A stretch of DNA of 64,000 nt from Porphyromonas sp. (lineage in GTDB: Bacteria > Bacteroidota > Bacteroidia > Bacteroidales > Porphyromonadaceae). The stretch covers positions 62,001-126,000 of the forward strand of contig JALFBN010000011.1 in assembly GCA_022772085.1 (NCBI GenBank). The letters are read 5' to 3'. Made by a program: the position numbers and the translations under genes. Positions within the stretch are counted from its first letter, which is position 1, and every line of letters starts with the position of its first letter. A model generated the notes under the pieces. That model was given only the letters and a program-made list of their open reading frames with translations, had not been told where the DNA came from and did not search any database. Positions 46,124-55,199 of the stretch are shown here, piece after piece.

Positions 46124-48100
46124 ATGCTTCTTGTCATCACTCCACCCGATGCCACCCCCCAAGTAGTGCAACGTTACAACACACTGCTTGGGTTGGGGGC
46201 ATCCAAATTGCTGCTGCGTCTACCCGAAGCCGATGAGGTGCGTTATGAGGAATGTATCCGTAGCATAAGTCCTCGCTACCGCCATCGTGTTATTTTGGCG
46301 GACTTCTACCACCTTGTACCCAAGGCCGGATTAGGAGGGATTCACCTCAAAGCGGAACGTCGTCCTGATTGGGCTACTTGGCAACAGATCGCTCAAACGG
46401 ACTTTATCACGACTTCAGTACATAGTTTGGAGGAGTTAGAGCATTTGGAGTTCTCCCCCTCAATGGCACTGCTCAGCCCCGTATTTGATAGTATCTCCAA
46501 ATCGGGATACCAAGCGGCGATAGACCTAAAGCATTGCAGAGAGAGATTACCTCAAATACCCTTTCCGGTACTTGCTTTAGGAGGAGTAACACCTGATAAG
46601 ATTCAGATCTGCCGAGATCATGGATTTTCCGGAGGAGCTGTTTTGGGCTATCTAGCGGAGGATATAAATGCTTTGCGAGAACGCTTTTGTGCCTACCCTC
46701 GCCCCGAAGTGCTGACTATTGCGGGACATGACCCCTCCTCTGGCGCAGGACTTACAGCAGACATTCGAGCCATAGAACAGACCGAGAGTTATCCACTATC
46801 GGTCATTAGCTGTACAACAATCCAAAATGAGGGGGAATTTGTCAAAAGTCTTGCGGTAGAAACTCAGCCCTATCTCGCACAAATCCTCAAAACACACACG
46901 CCCCTTGTTGCTAAAATTGGACTCACAACGTCACTTTCCGAGGTTCGTGATCTGATGCTTCAACTGCATCGCGCCGGTGTTGCAACCATCATATGGGATC
47001 CGATCCTGCAACCTTCATACAGTACGAAACCCATTCTCGAACAGGTAGACCCTACAATCCTCGCCGAATGCCTTACCCTCTGCTCTCTTCTTACACCCAA
47101 TATCCCCGAAGCGAAGACTCTATTCGGCACATTGGAGAGAAAAACGTTGCAAGATATAGCTGATCAATTTGGGGTATCGATCCTACTCAAAGGAGGACAT
47201 GCAACCAAAAGCGAATACGCCTCAGACCTCCTCCTACAACCCCACAAGGAGCCAATTCAAACTCACGTCCCCCGAACTCCTTATGACAAACATGGTACAG
47301 GTTGCATTCTCTCCGCTACGATCAGTAGCTACCTGGCACACGGCTACTCCATCCGAGAGTCATGTCGGCTTGCCCAATGGCATGTCGATCAATTAAGACG
47401 TTCCAACTCAAGCAAACTAGGCTACCTAAACACCCCAATAGTATCCCTCAAGGAGGAAAAGCTGCTTCGGGGAAAACTCCAATTCATAACCAACAGTCTC
47501 GATTCCTCCGAAATCTTAAAGCAATGTCAGGCAGCCCTCCAAGGTGGGCTCCGTTGGATTCAACTTCGTATGAAAGAGGCTTCTACCGATGAACGTACAG
47601 CCGTGGCTCGCTCCATCCGCAAGCTGATGCAAGACTACCCATCGAGTATTTTGATTATTGACGATGACGTCGAGGCGGTACTACGTGCCGATGCAGATGG
47701 CGTACACGTGGGATTGAATGATCTCCCTCCAGCCCAAGTACGTGCTCTTTTAGGAAATGAAAAAATAATCGGAGCGACCTGCAACACAATGCAAGATATT
47801 GCATTACGTGCTCTGCAAGGGGTTGATTACATTGGCGTGGGCCCCTATCGCAATACCACAACCAAGAAACTACTGAGTCCCCTACTTGGAGAGAAGGGAA
47901 TGTCTCGTCTCGTCCAATTCAATCGCTCACTACCGGAACCTCTTCCAATGGTGGGCATCGGAGGTATCGAATCGGACGATCTCCCCTCACTCGCCTCGAT
48001 AGGACTTTACGGAGTAGCCCTATCGGGCGTAATCAATCAAGCCGATAATCCCCAAGCCGAGAGTTCCCGACTTGTTAAACTAATCAATCAACACTTCTAA
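46124..48100 (+). CDS. thiDE: Three-domain thiamine protein: ThiE-like/TenI - ThiD - ThiE
   Basis: A 658-residue fusion. Residues ~1-195 are a ThiE/TenI-type barrel (GGIHLKAERRPD, ALLSPVFDSISKSGY, VLALGGVTPDKI) with LLLRLPEA in place of the pyrimidine-binding QxRxK strand, so it is likely not a synthase. It may act as a thiazole tautomerase like TenI. Residues ~198-440 are HMP-phosphate kinase ThiD (TIAGHDPSSGAGLTADI, VAKIGL, LLTPNIPEA, HGTGCILSATI). Residues ~450-658 are thiamine phosphate synthase ThiE with intact motifs WIQLRMKEA, DGVHVGLNDL, IGVGPYRNTTTKK and MVGIGGI. It starts 20 bases after thiC. It would combine late pyrimidine steps and ring coupling in one chain. Confidence 0.92.
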   Translation: MLLVITPPDATPQVVQRYNTLLGLGASKLLLRLPEADEVRYEECIRSISPRYRHRVILADFYHLVPKAGLGGIHLKAERRPDWATWQQIAQTDFITTSVHSLEELEHLEFSPSMALLSPVFDSISKSGYQAAIDLKHCRERLPQIPFPVLALGGVTPDKIQICRDHGFSGGAVLGYLAEDINALRERFCAYPRPEVLTIAGHDPSSGAGLTADIRAIEQTESYPLSVISCTTIQNEGEFVKSLAVETQPYLAQILKTHTPLVAKIGLTTSLSEVRDLMLQLHRAGVATIIWDPILQPSYSTKPILEQVDPTILAECLTLCSLLTPNIPEAKTLFGTLERKTLQDIADQFGVSILLKGGHATKSEYASDLLLQPHKEPIQTHVPRTPYDKHGTGCILSATISSYLAHGYSIRESCRLAQWHVDQLRRSNSSKLGYLNTPIVSLKEEKLLRGKLQFITNSLDSSEILKQCQAALQGGLRWIQLRMKEASTDERTAVARSIRKLMQDYPSSILIIDDDVEAVLRADADGVHVGLNDLPPAQVRALLGNEKIIGATCNTMQDIALRALQGVDYIGVGPYRNTTTKKLLSPLLGEKGMSRLVQFNRSLPEPLPMVGIGGIESDDLPSLASIGLYGVALSGVINQADNPQAESSRLVKLINQHF

Positions 48101-50021: not shown

Positions 50022-50722
50022 ATCAAGATCTTCGGATACGTTATTCACGACAGAGCCTACTCCCCGAAATTGGTCTTGAGGGGCAGGCTCTGCTTGCTTC
50101 CAAGCGGGTACTCGTCGTGGGAGCAGGAGGCTTAGGATCCCCTCTTCTCTATTACCTCGTTGCCGCAGGGATCGGACATATCGGGATCGTGGAGGGAGAC
50201 ACGGTCAATTTGAGTAATCTGCAACGGCAAATTTTATATACCGAAGCGGATCTGGATAAACCCAAAGCAGATTGTGCCCATAGGCGTCTATCCTCACTCA
50301 ATAGCCACTGCGACATCCGAGTTTACCCCTATTTTTTTACTTCAGACAACGCCCTCACCATCACCTCCAACTACGATCTGATCGTGGATGGATGCGACAA
50401 TAATCGGACACGCTACCTCATGGATAATACAGCTCGCACCCTAGGTATTCCCTATCTCTATGGAGCTGTATCGCATTTTATCGGTCAATGTTCACTATTT
50501 CATTACCAAGGATCCGGCGGATATAGCGATCTTTTTTCTTCTCTTGACGAAGAGTCCGACCGAGAGATAATCCCCGTGTTGGGAGCCATGCCGGGAATCC
50601 TTGGATCTATTATGGCTCTGGAAACCCTCAAAACCCTACTTGGCATCGGGACAAGTCTTGCGGGGAAACTACTCCGCATCGATGCACTCAGCCTCGACAT
50701 TCAACTTCTGGACCTTCAGTAA
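50012..50722 (+). CDS. thiF: ThiF-type adenylyltransferase
   Basis: Activates the ThiS C-terminus by adenylation. The 236 residues contain RYSRQSLLPEIG, the nucleotide loop VLVVGAGGLGSPLLYYL, the Arg finger in NLSNLQRQILY, and DLIVDGCDNNRTRYLMD. The two CxxC zinc pairs of E. coli ThiF and MoeB are missing: where CxxC is expected the sequence reads GGYSDLFSSLDEE. The start at 50012 was chosen over 49994 because it directly precedes the conserved RYSRQ region with the usual spacing. It overlaps thiH by 10 bases. Confidence 0.9.
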   Translation: MDVNQDLRIRYSRQSLLPEIGLEGQALLASKRVLVVGAGGLGSPLLYYLVAAGIGHIGIVEGDTVNLSNLQRQILYTEADLDKPKADCAHRRLSSLNSHCDIRVYPYFFTSDNALTITSNYDLIVDGCDNNRTRYLMDNTARTLGIPYLYGAVSHFIGQCSLFHYQGSGGYSDLFSSLDEESDREIIPVLGAMPGILGSIMALETLKTLLGIGTSLAGKLLRIDALSLDIQLLDLQ

Positions 50723-50729
50723 AATCGTT

Positions 50730-51575
50730 ATGAACCTGCTCATTCCAAATCGATTCATCGGATATTACCTGCTTCTTGCTCTGCTACTACCCCTATCAGC
50801 CCAAGCTCAACGTGGACAGGAACATACTGAAAATGGCATCACAACCCTACTAGAGATCCCCGCTCTATCTCAAAGCAGCGACTGCTACTTCATCACCCAC
50901 CACGTCCAAGGCTCGGTCAATTATTCCGTAGAATACGATACCCGTTTACACGTACCACGCTGGGTCGCCTTTACCTTCGACAATAAAAATTGCGAGAAAC
51001 AAAAAGGGGGCAAACGTACCGAAGCATGGGGATGGAATCCCTTTATTCCAACTCAATTTGAGACGGATCGCTCTTGGTTCAAAGGCTATTCTCGAGGGCA
51101 CCTTGTCGCATCCAACGACCGCCAACAGTCGATTGCTGCCAACAAACAGACCTTTTATTACACAAACATGGTACCGCAATACGCCAAGCACAATACGGGG
51201 GTATGGAAACGTCTCGAGGGTGTAGTACAAAAATGGGGACGCAACAAAAAGATGCGAGACATGCTCTACGTGGCTAAAGGAGTAACACTCGCGCCACAGC
51301 ATATCATAGGCTATACAAAAAAAGGAATTGCCGTGCCGCGCTATTTTTGGATGGCACTTGTTCTGCAAAAAGGAACGGAATACTACGGATTAGCGTTCCT
51401 ATCGGAACACAATGAAGCCCCTTTTGAGGGACGACTAGGCAAGCTCACGCTATCGATAGATGAGCTCGAGCAATTCCTTGATCTGGATCTATTTCCCAAC
51501 TTCCCCGACAAAGTAGAGCAGGCTTTTGAACGGCAGAATCCTCTCAAACACACGCACATTTGGTTAAAAATATAA
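50730..51575 (+). CDS. Secreted DNA/RNA non-specific endonuclease
   Basis: A 281-residue nuclease with a signal peptide (IGYYLLLALLLPLSAQAQ). The catalytic motif is YSRGHLVASNDR, an S-R-G-H form of the DRGH motif in the Serratia nuclease family. The metal-binding Asn is in TFYYTNMVPQYAKHNTGVW. It probably degrades nucleic acids outside the inner membrane for nutrition or for escape from neutrophil DNA traps. It starts 7 bases after thiF with no terminator between, so it should be transcribed with the thiamine operon and be subject to the riboswitch if that acts on transcription. The terminator follows at 51613. Confidence 0.88.
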   Translation: MNLLIPNRFIGYYLLLALLLPLSAQAQRGQEHTENGITTLLEIPALSQSSDCYFITHHVQGSVNYSVEYDTRLHVPRWVAFTFDNKNCEKQKGGKRTEAWGWNPFIPTQFETDRSWFKGYSRGHLVASNDRQQSIAANKQTFYYTNMVPQYAKHNTGVWKRLEGVVQKWGRNKKMRDMLYVAKGVTLAPQHIIGYTKKGIAVPRYFWMALVLQKGTEYYGLAFLSEHNEAPFEGRLGKLTLSIDELEQFLDLDLFPNFPDKVEQAFERQNPLKHTHIWLKI

Positions 51576-51612
51576 CTTCCTCTATTACAGCCTCTTTTCC
51601 TACAACTCCATC

Positions 51613-51661
51613 AAAAAAGGTTTCTGCTCAGGAGAAAAAACTCTTTGGCAGAGCCTTTTTT
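51613..51661 (+). terminator. Terminator of the thiamine-nuclease operon
   Basis: AAAAAAGG pairs with CCTTTTTT, and CTGC with GCAG across a small internal loop. The hairpin starts 37 bases after the nuclease stop. The remaining bases to 51794 contain no clear consensus promoter. Confidence 0.75.
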
Positions 51662-51794
51662 AACATTTAATCTTTTCCTAGCAATCGCCACCCCTCCGAA
51701 ACTGCCAATAGAACGAGAGACAAATCGTTACATGTATTTCAATCTTTATACCGATCTTTGCCGACAGAAACAAATAAACATATAACAACCAATT

Positions 51795-52346
51795 ATGATG
51801 AAAAGGAGAATCGTATTTTTTCGGATGAGCTTCCTGCTCTCCCTCGTTTGTGGCATGCTGTTATTGCCAAGTATCACATCTTGTAATAACAGGAACAAAG
51901 AACCTGAAAAACCACAAGTTCAAAATATCGAGCTGACAGGGACAGCTTGGCGTGGCACAGTAGCCACAAAAGATGCTAAAGGGAATCTTATAAAAACCCA
52001 AGTCAGTGTTTCTTTTTTAAAAGGGAAAGGTGAGTGGCATTTTGACAAGAATCCTACAGCCTTTTTCAAAGCGTGGTGGAGGCCATCATATGATGATATG
52101 AATGACTGGAGGTATTCTGCCTTTTCCTATGAGAGAGATGCTCTTACTCTTGTGTCTATGTCTCGATTTGAACTTCCATTTAAATTATTTCAAGGTTCTT
52201 GGATCATAACGAAGCTGACAGATGATGAACTGAATCTTTTTGTAAATCCGGAAACAGAGTCACGAACTATTTGGCTAAATCTCAATAGGATGAATCCCAA
52301 TCCCACTAAAAATAAAACATTGATCTATGCGAAAAAGAATCATTGA
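51795..52346 (+). CDS. Small lipoprotein of unknown family, partner of MACPF protein
   Basis: Predicted lipoprotein of 183 residues: signal peptide MMKRRIVFFRMSFLLSLVC ending in lipobox SITSCNN. The mature part is a small beta-rich domain (TGTAWRGTVATKDAKGN, KTQVSVSFLKGKGEWHF) resembling a lipocalin-like or META-like barrel only in general character. It overlaps the start of the MACPF gene by 20 bases, so the two are translated together. Base composition is AT-richer than the thiamine genes upstream. It could be a partner, chaperone or self-protection factor of the MACPF protein; none of these is shown by the sequence. Confidence 0.65.
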   Translation: MMKRRIVFFRMSFLLSLVCGMLLLPSITSCNNRNKEPEKPQVQNIELTGTAWRGTVATKDAKGNLIKTQVSVSFLKGKGEWHFDKNPTAFFKAWWRPSYDDMNDWRYSAFSYERDALTLVSMSRFELPFKLFQGSWIITKLTDDELNLFVNPETESRTIWLNLNRMNPNPTKNKTLIYAKKNH

Positions 52347-54165
52347 ACACCTGTTATTGCAGTATTTAGGAGCTTTCTTGCTACTCCTAAGCTTGGTTGC
52401 ATGCACCTCTGAACAAGGGCCTAAGAAGAATACGGAAGATCCGAGAGGAGAACTTATCTATGCTCGCTCACAGGAGGCTCCTATCATCTTATGCAAGACT
52501 CCGAAAGAAAACTCTTTACGTTCAGCAATCCCTTATTCTGTTGATCAATATATTGGATTTACATACAATCCTGAACATGGGATCATTGGAGATCAAGAAT
52601 GTTTTAAAAGACAAATCTTTGATATTGACCGTTTTGAAAAAGAGAACCCTCGTGGAGTAGAAATTCTCTCTATGAAGAACACCAAAGCCGATTATAATGT
52701 ATTTGCCAGTAGTGAGTCTCTCATTAAGAACATAGTAGATAAGTACACCTCCACACACAAGGTTGGTTTTGATATTGTATTCTTTAAAATTGGTTATGAG
52801 AAGACTTTCTCAAGAATATTCCATAAGCATGTTGAGTACCAAAAGAACCAAGTCCGTGGAGTGTTGAATGTTCTTTGTCAAGATGCTCGTTATACGCTGG
52901 ATCGCTCCCCTCGTTTAGATAATGTCCTGCGACATAAGTATCTTTCGAAATCTTTTCTAGACAGCCTCTACAATAGACCTTTTGATAAACTATTCTCTAC
53001 AGACGGCATCTATAGTCCTAGTGTCATAACACGTTACATCGCAGGAGGTAAGGCTGATGTTCTTTTTGAAGGTACTTCAAAAAAAAATGTTGAGAGCACA
53101 TCCTTGGAAGAGGATTTGAGGGAGACGATAGAGGCTTCTATTCATGTCTCTGCCAGCGATATAGAGCTGAGTCCCAAACCCGAAACCGAAACGAAATCCT
53201 CATATTTAAGGAACCAAGATGATGACCGTGATGATCATAGGGATGAGGATGAACCGGGAAATTCCTCGTCTTCTAACCAATCAGGGGAAACTAAAAATTT
53301 TAATACTCTAAAGGTATCATACCGAACGATTGGGGGGGGCCATGCAATGGCATTTAGTGCTCCAATGAAATATGGTAATTTAAAGGTGGATCTAACTCCA
53401 TGGGTAAATAGCTTGAATGACAAGTCTACACATGTTCTTATTGACATTCCAGATGGAGGATTTACTCCTATTTCAGAATTTATCCAGGAAGAGAACTTCA
53501 GAAAACGTATCGAATATAAAGCATACAACACGAGCTTCAGCGAGCCTTATATTGAGATTCGCTTGGGAGATAATGATGGGATCTTTCAGTCCTTTTATGA
53601 ACCAACGCCATCATTTCCCTACAAATCTCCACAACCTCTTGATTTGATTTTACATACACGTCATGGTGATGAGATCTCATTGCGACCTATACACGAAAAT
53701 GATAAATCATTTTGGCAAGCACAATATGAAGACGAGTATAATCGTAAAGTGAAAGAGATTGCCGATTATGCACATAGGTACTATAATCTAGACATAAGAA
53801 AAACCTATTATAAGTCCGCAATGCTGAGTGAACGTGTAAAACTAGCATCCAAAGCAAAATTTCCACACACGGGAGAATTGGGAGACAAAATACAAAAATT
53901 CTGTCTTCCGACGACTGTTCATATTGCCTTGTTTGGTCTTAAAGAGGGACAGTTGAAACGCTGCAAGCATCCTTACTACTATGATGAAGCAAAGGGTCTA
54001 TTCATGCAATATCTCTACTTTGTCGAGGGAAACAAGCGTTACGCCTTTGCGATCTACGAGCCCTATATTTTGGATACATATGGTCTTCGCAAACTCTTTG
54101 AAAACGCCAAAGAAGAAGCCCTATCTATACACGACCTGAGGCATTTCAGGATCATTGGTTTGTAA
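52327..54165 (+). CDS. MACPF (perforin-like) lipoprotein
   Basis: A 612-residue predicted lipoprotein with lipobox LSLVACTSE. Residues ~60-370 follow the Bacteroidota MACPF pattern: SVDQYIGFTYNPEHGIIGD, then VEILSMKNTKADYNVFASS, a Lys-rich helix region, and a core with PFDKLFSTDGIYSPSVI followed by TRYIAGGKADVLFEG (residues ~228-248). That segment corresponds to the MACPF signature but lacks the usual YGTH. An acidic low-complexity insert (DDDRDDHRDEDEPGNSSSS, ~298-318) interrupts the domain. The C-terminal ~230 residues are unassigned and may bind a receptor. Bacteroides relatives (BSAP proteins) kill related strains by forming pores. An antagonistic role here is inference. Confidence 0.75.
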   Translation: MRKRIIEHLLLQYLGAFLLLLSLVACTSEQGPKKNTEDPRGELIYARSQEAPIILCKTPKENSLRSAIPYSVDQYIGFTYNPEHGIIGDQECFKRQIFDIDRFEKENPRGVEILSMKNTKADYNVFASSESLIKNIVDKYTSTHKVGFDIVFFKIGYEKTFSRIFHKHVEYQKNQVRGVLNVLCQDARYTLDRSPRLDNVLRHKYLSKSFLDSLYNRPFDKLFSTDGIYSPSVITRYIAGGKADVLFEGTSKKNVESTSLEEDLRETIEASIHVSASDIELSPKPETETKSSYLRNQDDDRDDHRDEDEPGNSSSSNQSGETKNFNTLKVSYRTIGGGHAMAFSAPMKYGNLKVDLTPWVNSLNDKSTHVLIDIPDGGFTPISEFIQEENFRKRIEYKAYNTSFSEPYIEIRLGDNDGIFQSFYEPTPSFPYKSPQPLDLILHTRHGDEISLRPIHENDKSFWQAQYEDEYNRKVKEIADYAHRYYNLDIRKTYYKSAMLSERVKLASKAKFPHTGELGDKIQKFCLPTTVHIALFGLKEGQLKRCKHPYYYDEAKGLFMQYLYFVEGNKRYAFAIYEPYILDTYGLRKLFENAKEEALSIHDLRHFRIIGL

Positions 54166-54219
54166 AAAACAAACACAAGGGAGATGCCCAAAGTCTCTCT
54201 CCATAAAAAATTCACTGAT

Positions 54220-54252
54220 GGGCTGGGAGTTGTTTTGGTACACTCTCAGCCC
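54220..54252. other. Hairpin in the gap after the MACPF gene
   Basis: GGGCTGGGAG and CTCTCAGCCC form a 10-bp stem with one G-T pair around a 13-base loop, followed by TTGAGTTT. It may be a weak terminator for the MACPF pair. Otherwise the 338-base gap from 54166 to 54503 holds only the -7 box listed next; the open frame within it (54184-54408) has no gene-like character. Confidence 0.45.
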
Positions 54253-54389
54253 TTGAGTTTGATACAACCCCTATTTTCGCTTCTTGCTTGGGCAACCTCT
54301 CCCTCCGTTTGCCTCTCCGCTCGCGAGGATCGGGCTTCAGCAAGCCTCGATTTGATTGGGTCCAAATACGTTTTGTCTTGCTTTTGCTG

Positions 54390-54397
54390 TATCTTTG
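54390..54397 (+). promoter_or_regulatory. -7 box (TATCTTTG) of the PASTA-rluD-ddl cluster
   Basis: TATCTTTG matches the consensus, with TTTTG at 54371-54375 as an imperfectly spaced -33 region. The next start is at 54504. Confidence 0.55.
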
Positions 54398-54503
54398 ACG
54401 CCGAATAGATGTGTGTGTGAAACGATCCCACCCCTATAAGCTGCGAAAAAGCAATAACAAGAGAACGTACATACGTCCATACGACGACAATCTAGATTAA
54501 GAT

Positions 54504-55199
54504 ATGAATTGGAAAGATTGGCCCTTTATACGTAAGCACCCGATCCTGAGTTCCCTACTTGCGATGCTCGGCGTATCAGCAGTAATACTCCTTATCGTAT
54601 TCCTATTGATGAGCATCTACACACAGCATGGGGAGGCTGTTACGATTCCCGAACTCAAAGGACTTCCCTATGACGAAGCCGTAGAAAAGCTCGAAGATGC
54701 CGGATTACGCTATGAGGTGATTGACTCCAATTACGTAGAAAACATGAAGCCGGGAACAGTATTTGAGACGATTCCCGAATCAGGTTCTCGCGTCAAACCT
54801 CGTCGCATCATATTCCTAACGATCAATGCCTTTTGTCCTCGCATGATTGCTCTTCCCGAGGTGGAGGGTCAATCGGCTCGCCATGCCAATGCCCTTCTGG
54901 AGGGATTGGGATTTACCAATGTTGGACTCAAGCGTGTTGATGGCCAATATAATGGCTTAGTTGTCGGTATTGCCAATGATAAGGGTGAAAAACTCGCTCC
55001 TGGCTCCAAAGTGCCTCTAAAGGCACATTTGACCCTCCTTGTTACGAGTGATGCTCTCAGCTTTAGTGCAGATAGTTTGGCGATCCAAGAGTCGCTCTTT
55101 GCCCCCACGGTTACGGACTCCACCCAAGCCGAAGCGGAGATCGACACTCGTGATGTAGCTCCCATCGTAGAGAAAGATGAACCCGAAGAATGGTGGTAA
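54504..55199 (+). CDS. PASTA domain protein, membrane anchored
   Basis: A 231-residue protein with one N-terminal helix (ILSSLLAMLGVSAVILLIVFLL) and an extracytoplasmic part with two or more PASTA units: TIPELKGLPYDEAVEKLEDAG, then LPEVEGQSARHANALLEGLG, then a shorter third. PASTA domains bind peptidoglycan fragments or cell-wall enzymes. No kinase or penicillin-binding domain is attached. It is close to ddl (two genes down) and so fits a wall-synthesis cluster. The rluD start lies one base after its stop. Confidence 0.85.
   Translation: MNWKDWPFIRKHPILSSLLAMLGVSAVILLIVFLLMSIYTQHGEAVTIPELKGLPYDEAVEKLEDAGLRYEVIDSNYVENMKPGTVFETIPESGSRVKPRRIIFLTINAFCPRMIALPEVEGQSARHANALLEGLGFTNVGLKRVDGQYNGLVVGIANDKGEKLAPGSKVPLKAHLTLLVTSDALSFSADSLAIQESLFAPTVTDSTQAEAEIDTRDVAPIVEKDEPEEWW

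Follow-up and report, generated by a model that had tools for sequence, protein, structure and literature searches.

Gut Bacteroides kill related bacteria with pore-forming surface proteins. Resistance to the MACPF lipoproteins BSAP-1 and BSAP-2 is brought about by a replaced target, as described in excerpts of PMC4999547. For another Bacteroides MACPF lipoprotein, BT_3439 (PDB 3kk7), a crystal structure has been available since 2010; the accessible part of its description (PMC2954219) gives a MACPF motif, places the membrane hairpin TMH2 at residues 248-304 and names a homologue in Porphyromonas endodontalis. No receptor is known for BT_3439 according to the accessible text of Borgini et al. 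2025 (PMC12853789). CDC-like toxins (CDCL) are accompanied by BcdI, a surface lipoprotein encoded beside them, which blocks pore formation and whose removal renders the producer more sensitive (excerpts of PMC11169675). In NCBIfam (June 2026), three further families are named for a BSAP-5 system, i.e., the 'pore-forming toxin' BSAP5a (NF053771), BSAP5b (NF053772), and the immunity protein BSAP-5i (NF053773). The immunity role of BSAP-5i would follow from its NCBI family name, and no BSAP-5 paper was found in the open-licence literature among the matches listed. Here we compare these systems with a pair of lipoprotein genes in the window, i.e., the whole stretch of 64,000 nucleotides that was analysed, which appears as a stripped-down version of BSAP-5. 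We consider it likely that the pair is a two-gene bacteriocin module, composed of a surface or released MACPF bacteriocin and a membrane-anchored immunity lipoprotein.

Layout and surroundings of the gene pair

Both open reading frames were recovered at the positions given in the initial annotation, including the overlap between them (Table 1), which likely couples translation of the small gene and the toxin gene. The pair is preceded by a gene for a DNA/RNA non-specific endonuclease, with a thiamine operon before that gene, and is followed by a PASTA-domain gene. Its GC content of 0.393, compared to 0.466 for the window and 0.498 for the thiamine operon, agrees with the earlier remark that the two genes are AT-richer than this operon. 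Similarity to four related loci (BLASTN, positions 50701-55000) is confined to the two genes and ends 3 bases past the toxin stop codon. The terminator-like inverted repeat downstream of the toxin gene was recognized by eye and is absent from the repeat search, which had a minimum length of 24. The thiamine operon itself (46124-48100, + strand) encodes a 658-aa fusion with two ThiE-type stretches (best 451-653) and a ThiD-type kinase (196-423).

Table 1 Features of the gene pair, with positions counted in the window and residues in the respective protein
Feature	Position	Strand	Basis and remarks
Small lipoprotein, BSAP-5i-like, probable immunity protein, 183 aa	51795..52346	+	ORF and NCBIfam; Cys30 codon 51882-51884
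BSAP5a-like MACPF lipoprotein, 612 aa	52327..54165	+	ORF, Pfam, PDB and NCBIfam; Cys26 codon 52402-52404
20-base overlap, both reading frames	52327..52346	+	Coordinates
Divergent MACPF motif Y-x10-GG, residues 229-241	53011..53049	+	Motif definition from PMC2954219 (in excerpt)
Acidic low-complexity insert, residues 282-325	53170..53301	+	In the region aligning with the TMH2 membrane hairpin of BT_3439
MACPF_D2-like segment	53647..53814	+	Pfam, 13.2 bits, below cut-off of 24.2
Variable block, residues 511-540	53857..53946	+	20% / 40% identity to the two closest toxins, vs 80-93% in 541-600
MACPF_D3 domain, residues 558-612	53998..54162	+	Pfam, 30.5 bits, cut-off 25
Terminator-like inverted repeat 3' of toxin gene	54220..54252	+	By eye

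Domains and family kinship of the two proteins

The MACPF pattern and the lipobox that had been recognized in the larger product are both borne out. The protein starts with a lipobox-type signal (...SLVAC, residues 22-26, Cys26; by eye), contains the Y-x10-GG motif, and matches a single chain in the PDB, 3kk7, over residues 32-412 (phmmer, E 8.2e-35). Evidence from Pfam profiles was divided, as MACPF_D3 exceeded its cut-off, whereas MACPF_D2 and MACPF itself (18.7 bits, cut-off 21.5) did not; the MACPF assignment thus rests on the solved relative 3kk7. Homology to this structure also speaks for a MACPF fold, while single-sequence AlphaFold2 predictions were uninformative, with a mean pLDDT (42.7 for the small and 33.0 for the large protein) too low for use. 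The C-terminal domain, initially regarded as unassigned, is assigned as MACPF_D2/D3, which constitutes "group 2" of the published BSAPs in the accessible text of PMC12853789. NCBIfam BSAP5a matches the large protein from end to end (profile positions 8-549 of 549, residues 17-612) with 404.3 bits and an E-value of 8.6e-121. The curated cut-off of 500 bits is missed by the window toxin but passed by its close relative in genome G007 (506.2 bits).

The acidic insert noted earlier is real and consists of 12 D/E and 6 K/R among 44 residues. Compared to the toxins of G007 and of contig C16 of the window's own genome, the window toxin is 90-93% identical in residues 361-390, as opposed to 7% in 271-300 and 23% in 301-330, with a further contrast between the variable block and residues 541-600 (Table 1). 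A gap in the partner was counted as a mismatch in these blocks and, therefore, the low identity at 271-330 largely reflects that the insert is missing in the C16 and G007 toxins. Judged from the aligned sequences, the tip of TMH2 and the D2/D3 edge are the fast-varying parts of the toxin and represent candidate sites for contact with a receptor or an immunity protein.

The smaller product is a lipoprotein, as had been stated (...SITSC, Cys30; by eye). It had been thought to match no family, and no Pfam family scored over its cut-off, yet it has a named relative in NCBIfam, BSAP-5i (22.3 bits, E 1e-4), whose cut-off of 150 bits was passed by none of the small proteins scanned (best 128.6 bits). 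The name of this family agrees with the initial guess of an immunity factor. Each of the 13 aligned small proteins, including that of the window, matched BSAP-5i at E up to 1 (best 2.2e-22), and such intermediate sequences support a distant relationship between the small protein and BSAP-5i. As a guard against shared signal peptides, profile tests used the mature parts of the proteins (3 of 16 mature sequences kept some signal residues). A profile of nine small proteins from outside the genus placed all seven genus members (21.7-33.4 bits) above all 66 control lipoprotein ORFs (14.4 bits or less), controls that are not neutral because they derive from the retrieved loci, some of which were retrieved by weak matches to the small-protein family. 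The reverse profile of genus members ranked five of the nine proteins from outside the genus clearly ahead of the controls (34.3 to 16.2 bits) and a sixth level with two controls at 15.3 bits, with the other three ranking among the controls. Aligning the two groups with hhalign gave a probability of 97.5. Against the PDB, the small-protein profile (hmmsearch) produced chance-level matches only (best E 0.53). A lipocalin-like fold, which we considered from a repeated TxW...GxW pattern, is an assumption that we do not claim.

Recurrence of the pair, gene order, and plasmid relatives

Toxin genes were searched by profile and not by linkage, at E < 1e-15, in overlapping genome sets from the genus (26), the order (393), and the family of G306 (101). 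The profile was built from the five genus toxins among the resulting 14, themselves found by the window toxin alone. The 14 BSAP5a-like genes are located in G000 and G542 (two each) and in G007, G010, G008, G295, G306, G517, G534, G500, G530, and G551; weaker matches were dropped, i.e., G022 (118-aa open frame), G045, contig C22 of G517, and a second segment of the G530 gene. Within the genus, the distribution of full-length toxin genes is patchy (4 of 26 genomes). Screening 392 genomes of this order with Pfam MACPF_D3 yielded a single additional match, which was under the cut-off, and scans of viral contigs revealed no relative.

A BSAP-5i-like gene lies near eight of the 14 toxin genes (nine with the doubtful G008), across three families. 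It is directly upstream of the toxin gene at both G000 loci and in G295, G306, G534, and G500, and downstream of it, in two copies, in G517. G007 has two small genes downstream, the first 660 bases off with a 130-aa ORF in between, and a decayed copy upstream. The small lipoprotein directly downstream of the G008 toxin scored only 14.2 bits. No small gene was found in the stretch listed beside the remaining five toxins (G010, G530, G551, and both of G542), one G542 toxin being near a contig end with a frame break near its start. The idea that the small gene accompanies the MACPF gene thus holds as far as both are linked in other genomes, but not as a rule without exceptions. Among small-gene matches of at least 80 bits in the genus, which were found regardless of linkage, four of eight are near a toxin. 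For matches of at least 60 bits in the other family the fraction is five of seven, but all five were already known as toxin neighbours and had gone into the profile, and the two new ones, in G542 and G499, are both orphans. These neighbour counts cover the top 8 of 27 matches in the genus and the top 7 of 34 in the other family, plus the decayed G007 copy. Small genes in genomes without a toxin match (G020, G017, and G499, the last with a weak BSAP5b match of 83.1 bits) are expected of immunity genes, but are also compatible with a general lipoprotein family that serves a different role.

A second complete pair is present in the window's genome on contig C16, where the small gene again precedes the toxin gene, at a distance of 23 bases; identities to the window pair are 57% and 32%. 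The 415-aa ORF beside it (L007 7267-8514) presumably encodes an outer-membrane protein. Contig C1 of the same genome carries an orphan small gene, and on this small contig two adjacent similar genes of 218 and 224 aa (L006 144-1636) appear to be a tandem duplication. The toxin of G007 is nearest to that of C16 (69%). One of its intact small genes is likewise nearest to the C16 gene (52%), and the other is equally near to that of the window and its neighbour (48% each). A 161-base direct repeat (L019 8730-8890 and 10556-10716, 86% alike) starts at the end of the G007 toxin gene and brackets both small genes. From their sequences, the G007 small genes could have been collected as immunity genes to two or more toxin types; plain duplication would fit too. 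In a Mantel test of toxins against small proteins, r was 0.80 for nine pairs (10 of 5000 permutations as high), and outside the genus 0.45 (103 of 5000) or 0.02 (2284 of 5000), depending on which G517 small gene was used. We set co-evolution aside as evidence, since the correlation mostly reflects close kinship. A 31-residue match at one locus, from a scan of genome contigs, was taken as chance.

BSAP5b was detected neither next to the window pair nor in the rest of its genome (99.95% complete) at E up to 0.01, apart from one weak partial match (17.1 bits, profile positions 1-58) to a 412-aa lipoprotein-like ORF. A toxin tree (13 sequences, i.e., the 14 without those of G542, plus one from a plasmid) contains a branch with 99/98 support that sets apart the operons starting with BSAP5b and ending with the small gene (G008, G517, and a Bacteroides plasmid), G008 being a long branch of unsure placement. 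Where the small gene leads and BSAP5b is not alongside, the toxins are on the other side, not as one group; the BSAP5b search covered 1.5-kb flanks in G295, and a BSAP5b of G534 (407 bits) is far from its pair. Something else might fill the place of the BSAP5b not found in the window's genome. The pair could then be part of a two-component toxin like BSAP-5a/5b, in which the small lipoprotein acts as an accessory factor or as the second component, e.g., a docking partner or chaperone, and not as an immunity protein. The small gene comes first and overlaps the toxin gene, and two-component toxins exist in the superfamily (CDCL; excerpts of PMC11169675). This explanation is nonetheless unlikely, because BSAP-5i, the relative of the small protein, coexists with BSAP5b in three-gene operons (G517 and the plasmid), which argues that the small protein does not replace 5b, and because small genes also occur as orphans without a toxin match.

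Twelve plasmid records match the window toxin, 11 of them typed conjugative and one mobilizable. In 11 records from Bacteroides and Phocaeicola the toxin match has the same extent and 23.5% identity to the window toxin. The 43.7-kb conjugative Bacteroides plasmid NZ_CP041231.1 (L123 2231-5714), the record in which gene order was checked, carries a BSAP5b-BSAP5a-small gene operon with BSAP5b (416 bits) and BSAP5a (637 bits) over and the small gene (58.5 bits) under the cut-off. The operon is annotated there merely as hypothetical and MAC/perforin proteins. A related B. fragilis plasmid, CP103278.1 (L125 3016-4234), has a recombinase gene next to a truncated toxin gene, annotated with 248 of 559 residues, but retains an intact and identical small gene (131/131 residues). 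Such a state is expected where retaining the small gene pays off even in the absence of the toxin; it nevertheless represents a single, perhaps recent event. In MT836595.1 (L124 3474-6470), an unverified 'Bacteriophage sp.' record that is probably bacterial DNA, a BSAP5b (476.8 bits) precedes the BSAP5a with the strongest score (740.8 bits; 902 bits to BT_3439), and the two next genes downstream of the toxin, both scanned, are not BSAP-5i. The plasmids also bear on the view that the MACPF protein is no weapon and functions in transport, adhesion, or host interaction, with the small lipoprotein as a structural neighbour. Transport or nutrient uptake was proposed from gene context in the BT_3439 structure paper (PMC2954219, in excerpt), and that BT_3439 has no known receptor (PMC12853789, in excerpt) would agree with it. 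We regard such a function as quite unlikely, as the NCBI curation of the family describes a pore-forming toxin that has an immunity partner, relatives reside on plasmids typed conjugative, and the genes are patchily distributed in the genus.

A putative bacteriocin with its own immunity lipoprotein

A changed receptor as the sole source of protection would leave the small gene incidental. Such a mechanism has been published for BSAP-1 and BSAP-2 and would suit the 415-aa ORF beside the C16 pair if it is an outer-membrane protein, but is hardly probable here, where no outer-membrane receptor or O-antigen gene was seen among the neighbours of the window pair (by eye; two nearest scanned) and where a small gene is repeatedly found near the toxin, in three families.

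As a bacteriocin with an immunity lipoprotein, the module could work as follows. The large gene would give rise to an outer-membrane MACPF lipoprotein that is displayed on the cell or released and binds a receptor on related bacteria via its D2/D3 C-terminal domain. Oligomerisation would follow, and a beta-barrel pore would form from the inserted hairpins TMH1 and TMH2. The small lipoprotein, encoded by the first gene, would bind its own toxin and block pore assembly at the membrane, thereby protecting the producer. Several findings count against the bacteriocin reading. Both proteins miss the NCBIfam equivalog cut-offs (404 of 500 and 22 of 150 bits), 5 of 14 toxin loci are without a small-gene neighbour and G008 is doubtful, the downstream small genes of G007 do not adjoin the toxin gene, the reverse profile separated only 5 of 9 members clearly, the downstream neighbours in L124 are not BSAP-5i, and the G542 and G499 genes are orphans. 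Several Bacteroides MACPF proteins showed no antimicrobial activity when assayed (2016 BSAP paper, PMC4999547, in excerpt), and the window form may be inactive by itself in case BSAP-5 depends on both of its components, a and b. More tentatively, and as a possibility that we would not yet favour, the pair may belong to a one-component branch of BSAP-5, in which the MACPF protein works without BSAP5b, the immunity lipoprotein is the operon leader, and the D2/D3 edge and the acidic TMH2 tip replace 5b.

If this one-component reading is true, the locus represents a BT_3439-type MACPF bacteriocin with toxin-specific immunity, not receptor replacement, in a host that, judged by its gene content, belongs to Porphyromonas; beyond the homologue named in the accessible text of PMC2954219, no such Porphyromonas toxin was found in the literature among the matches listed. 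The linked immunity-like gene would provide a direct handle on BT_3439-type MACPF proteins, which are structurally solved but without a known receptor, and the split between three-gene forms with BSAP5b and two-gene forms without it alongside makes the role of the second component testable. The initial annotation had proposed a different arrangement of MACPF toxin and lipoprotein. This pairing does recur, but is less novel than assumed, as BSAP-5 with its immunity protein is already in NCBIfam and BcdI has been published (PMC11169675, in excerpt). What is new is the two-gene form without BSAP5b, which is present twice in the window's genome, in a system otherwise already half named in the database.

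BSAP-1 and BSAP-2 resemble the window toxin as surface MACPF lipoproteins of Bacteroidales. They differ in their C-terminal domains (PMC12853789, in excerpt) and in resistance via a replaced target, with no small immunity lipoprotein mentioned in the accessible portion of PMC4999547. BT_3439, or Bth-MACPF, shares the MACPF fold with a D2/D3 C-terminal domain and the lipoprotein signal, whereas the window toxin has the acidic insert in the TMH2 region and is 26% identical to a close BT_3439 copy (L124). With BSAP-5, the window pair has in common a toxin homologous from end to end to BSAP5a, a small lipoprotein related to BSAP-5i, and neighbouring genes; in contrast to BSAP-5, the window pair has no BSAP5b found alongside or in its genome, its immunity-like gene is upstream and overlapping instead of downstream, and both proteins are under the curated cut-offs. 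CDCL toxins fall into the wider MACPF/CDC superfamily as well, and their producer is protected by an outer-surface lipoprotein, BcdI, encoded directly upstream of a toxin gene (according to excerpts of PMC11169675). CDCL differs as a two-component CDC-like toxin, and BcdI has 30.4 kDa. By its description, BcdI is the nearest published parallel to the proposed immunity lipoprotein.
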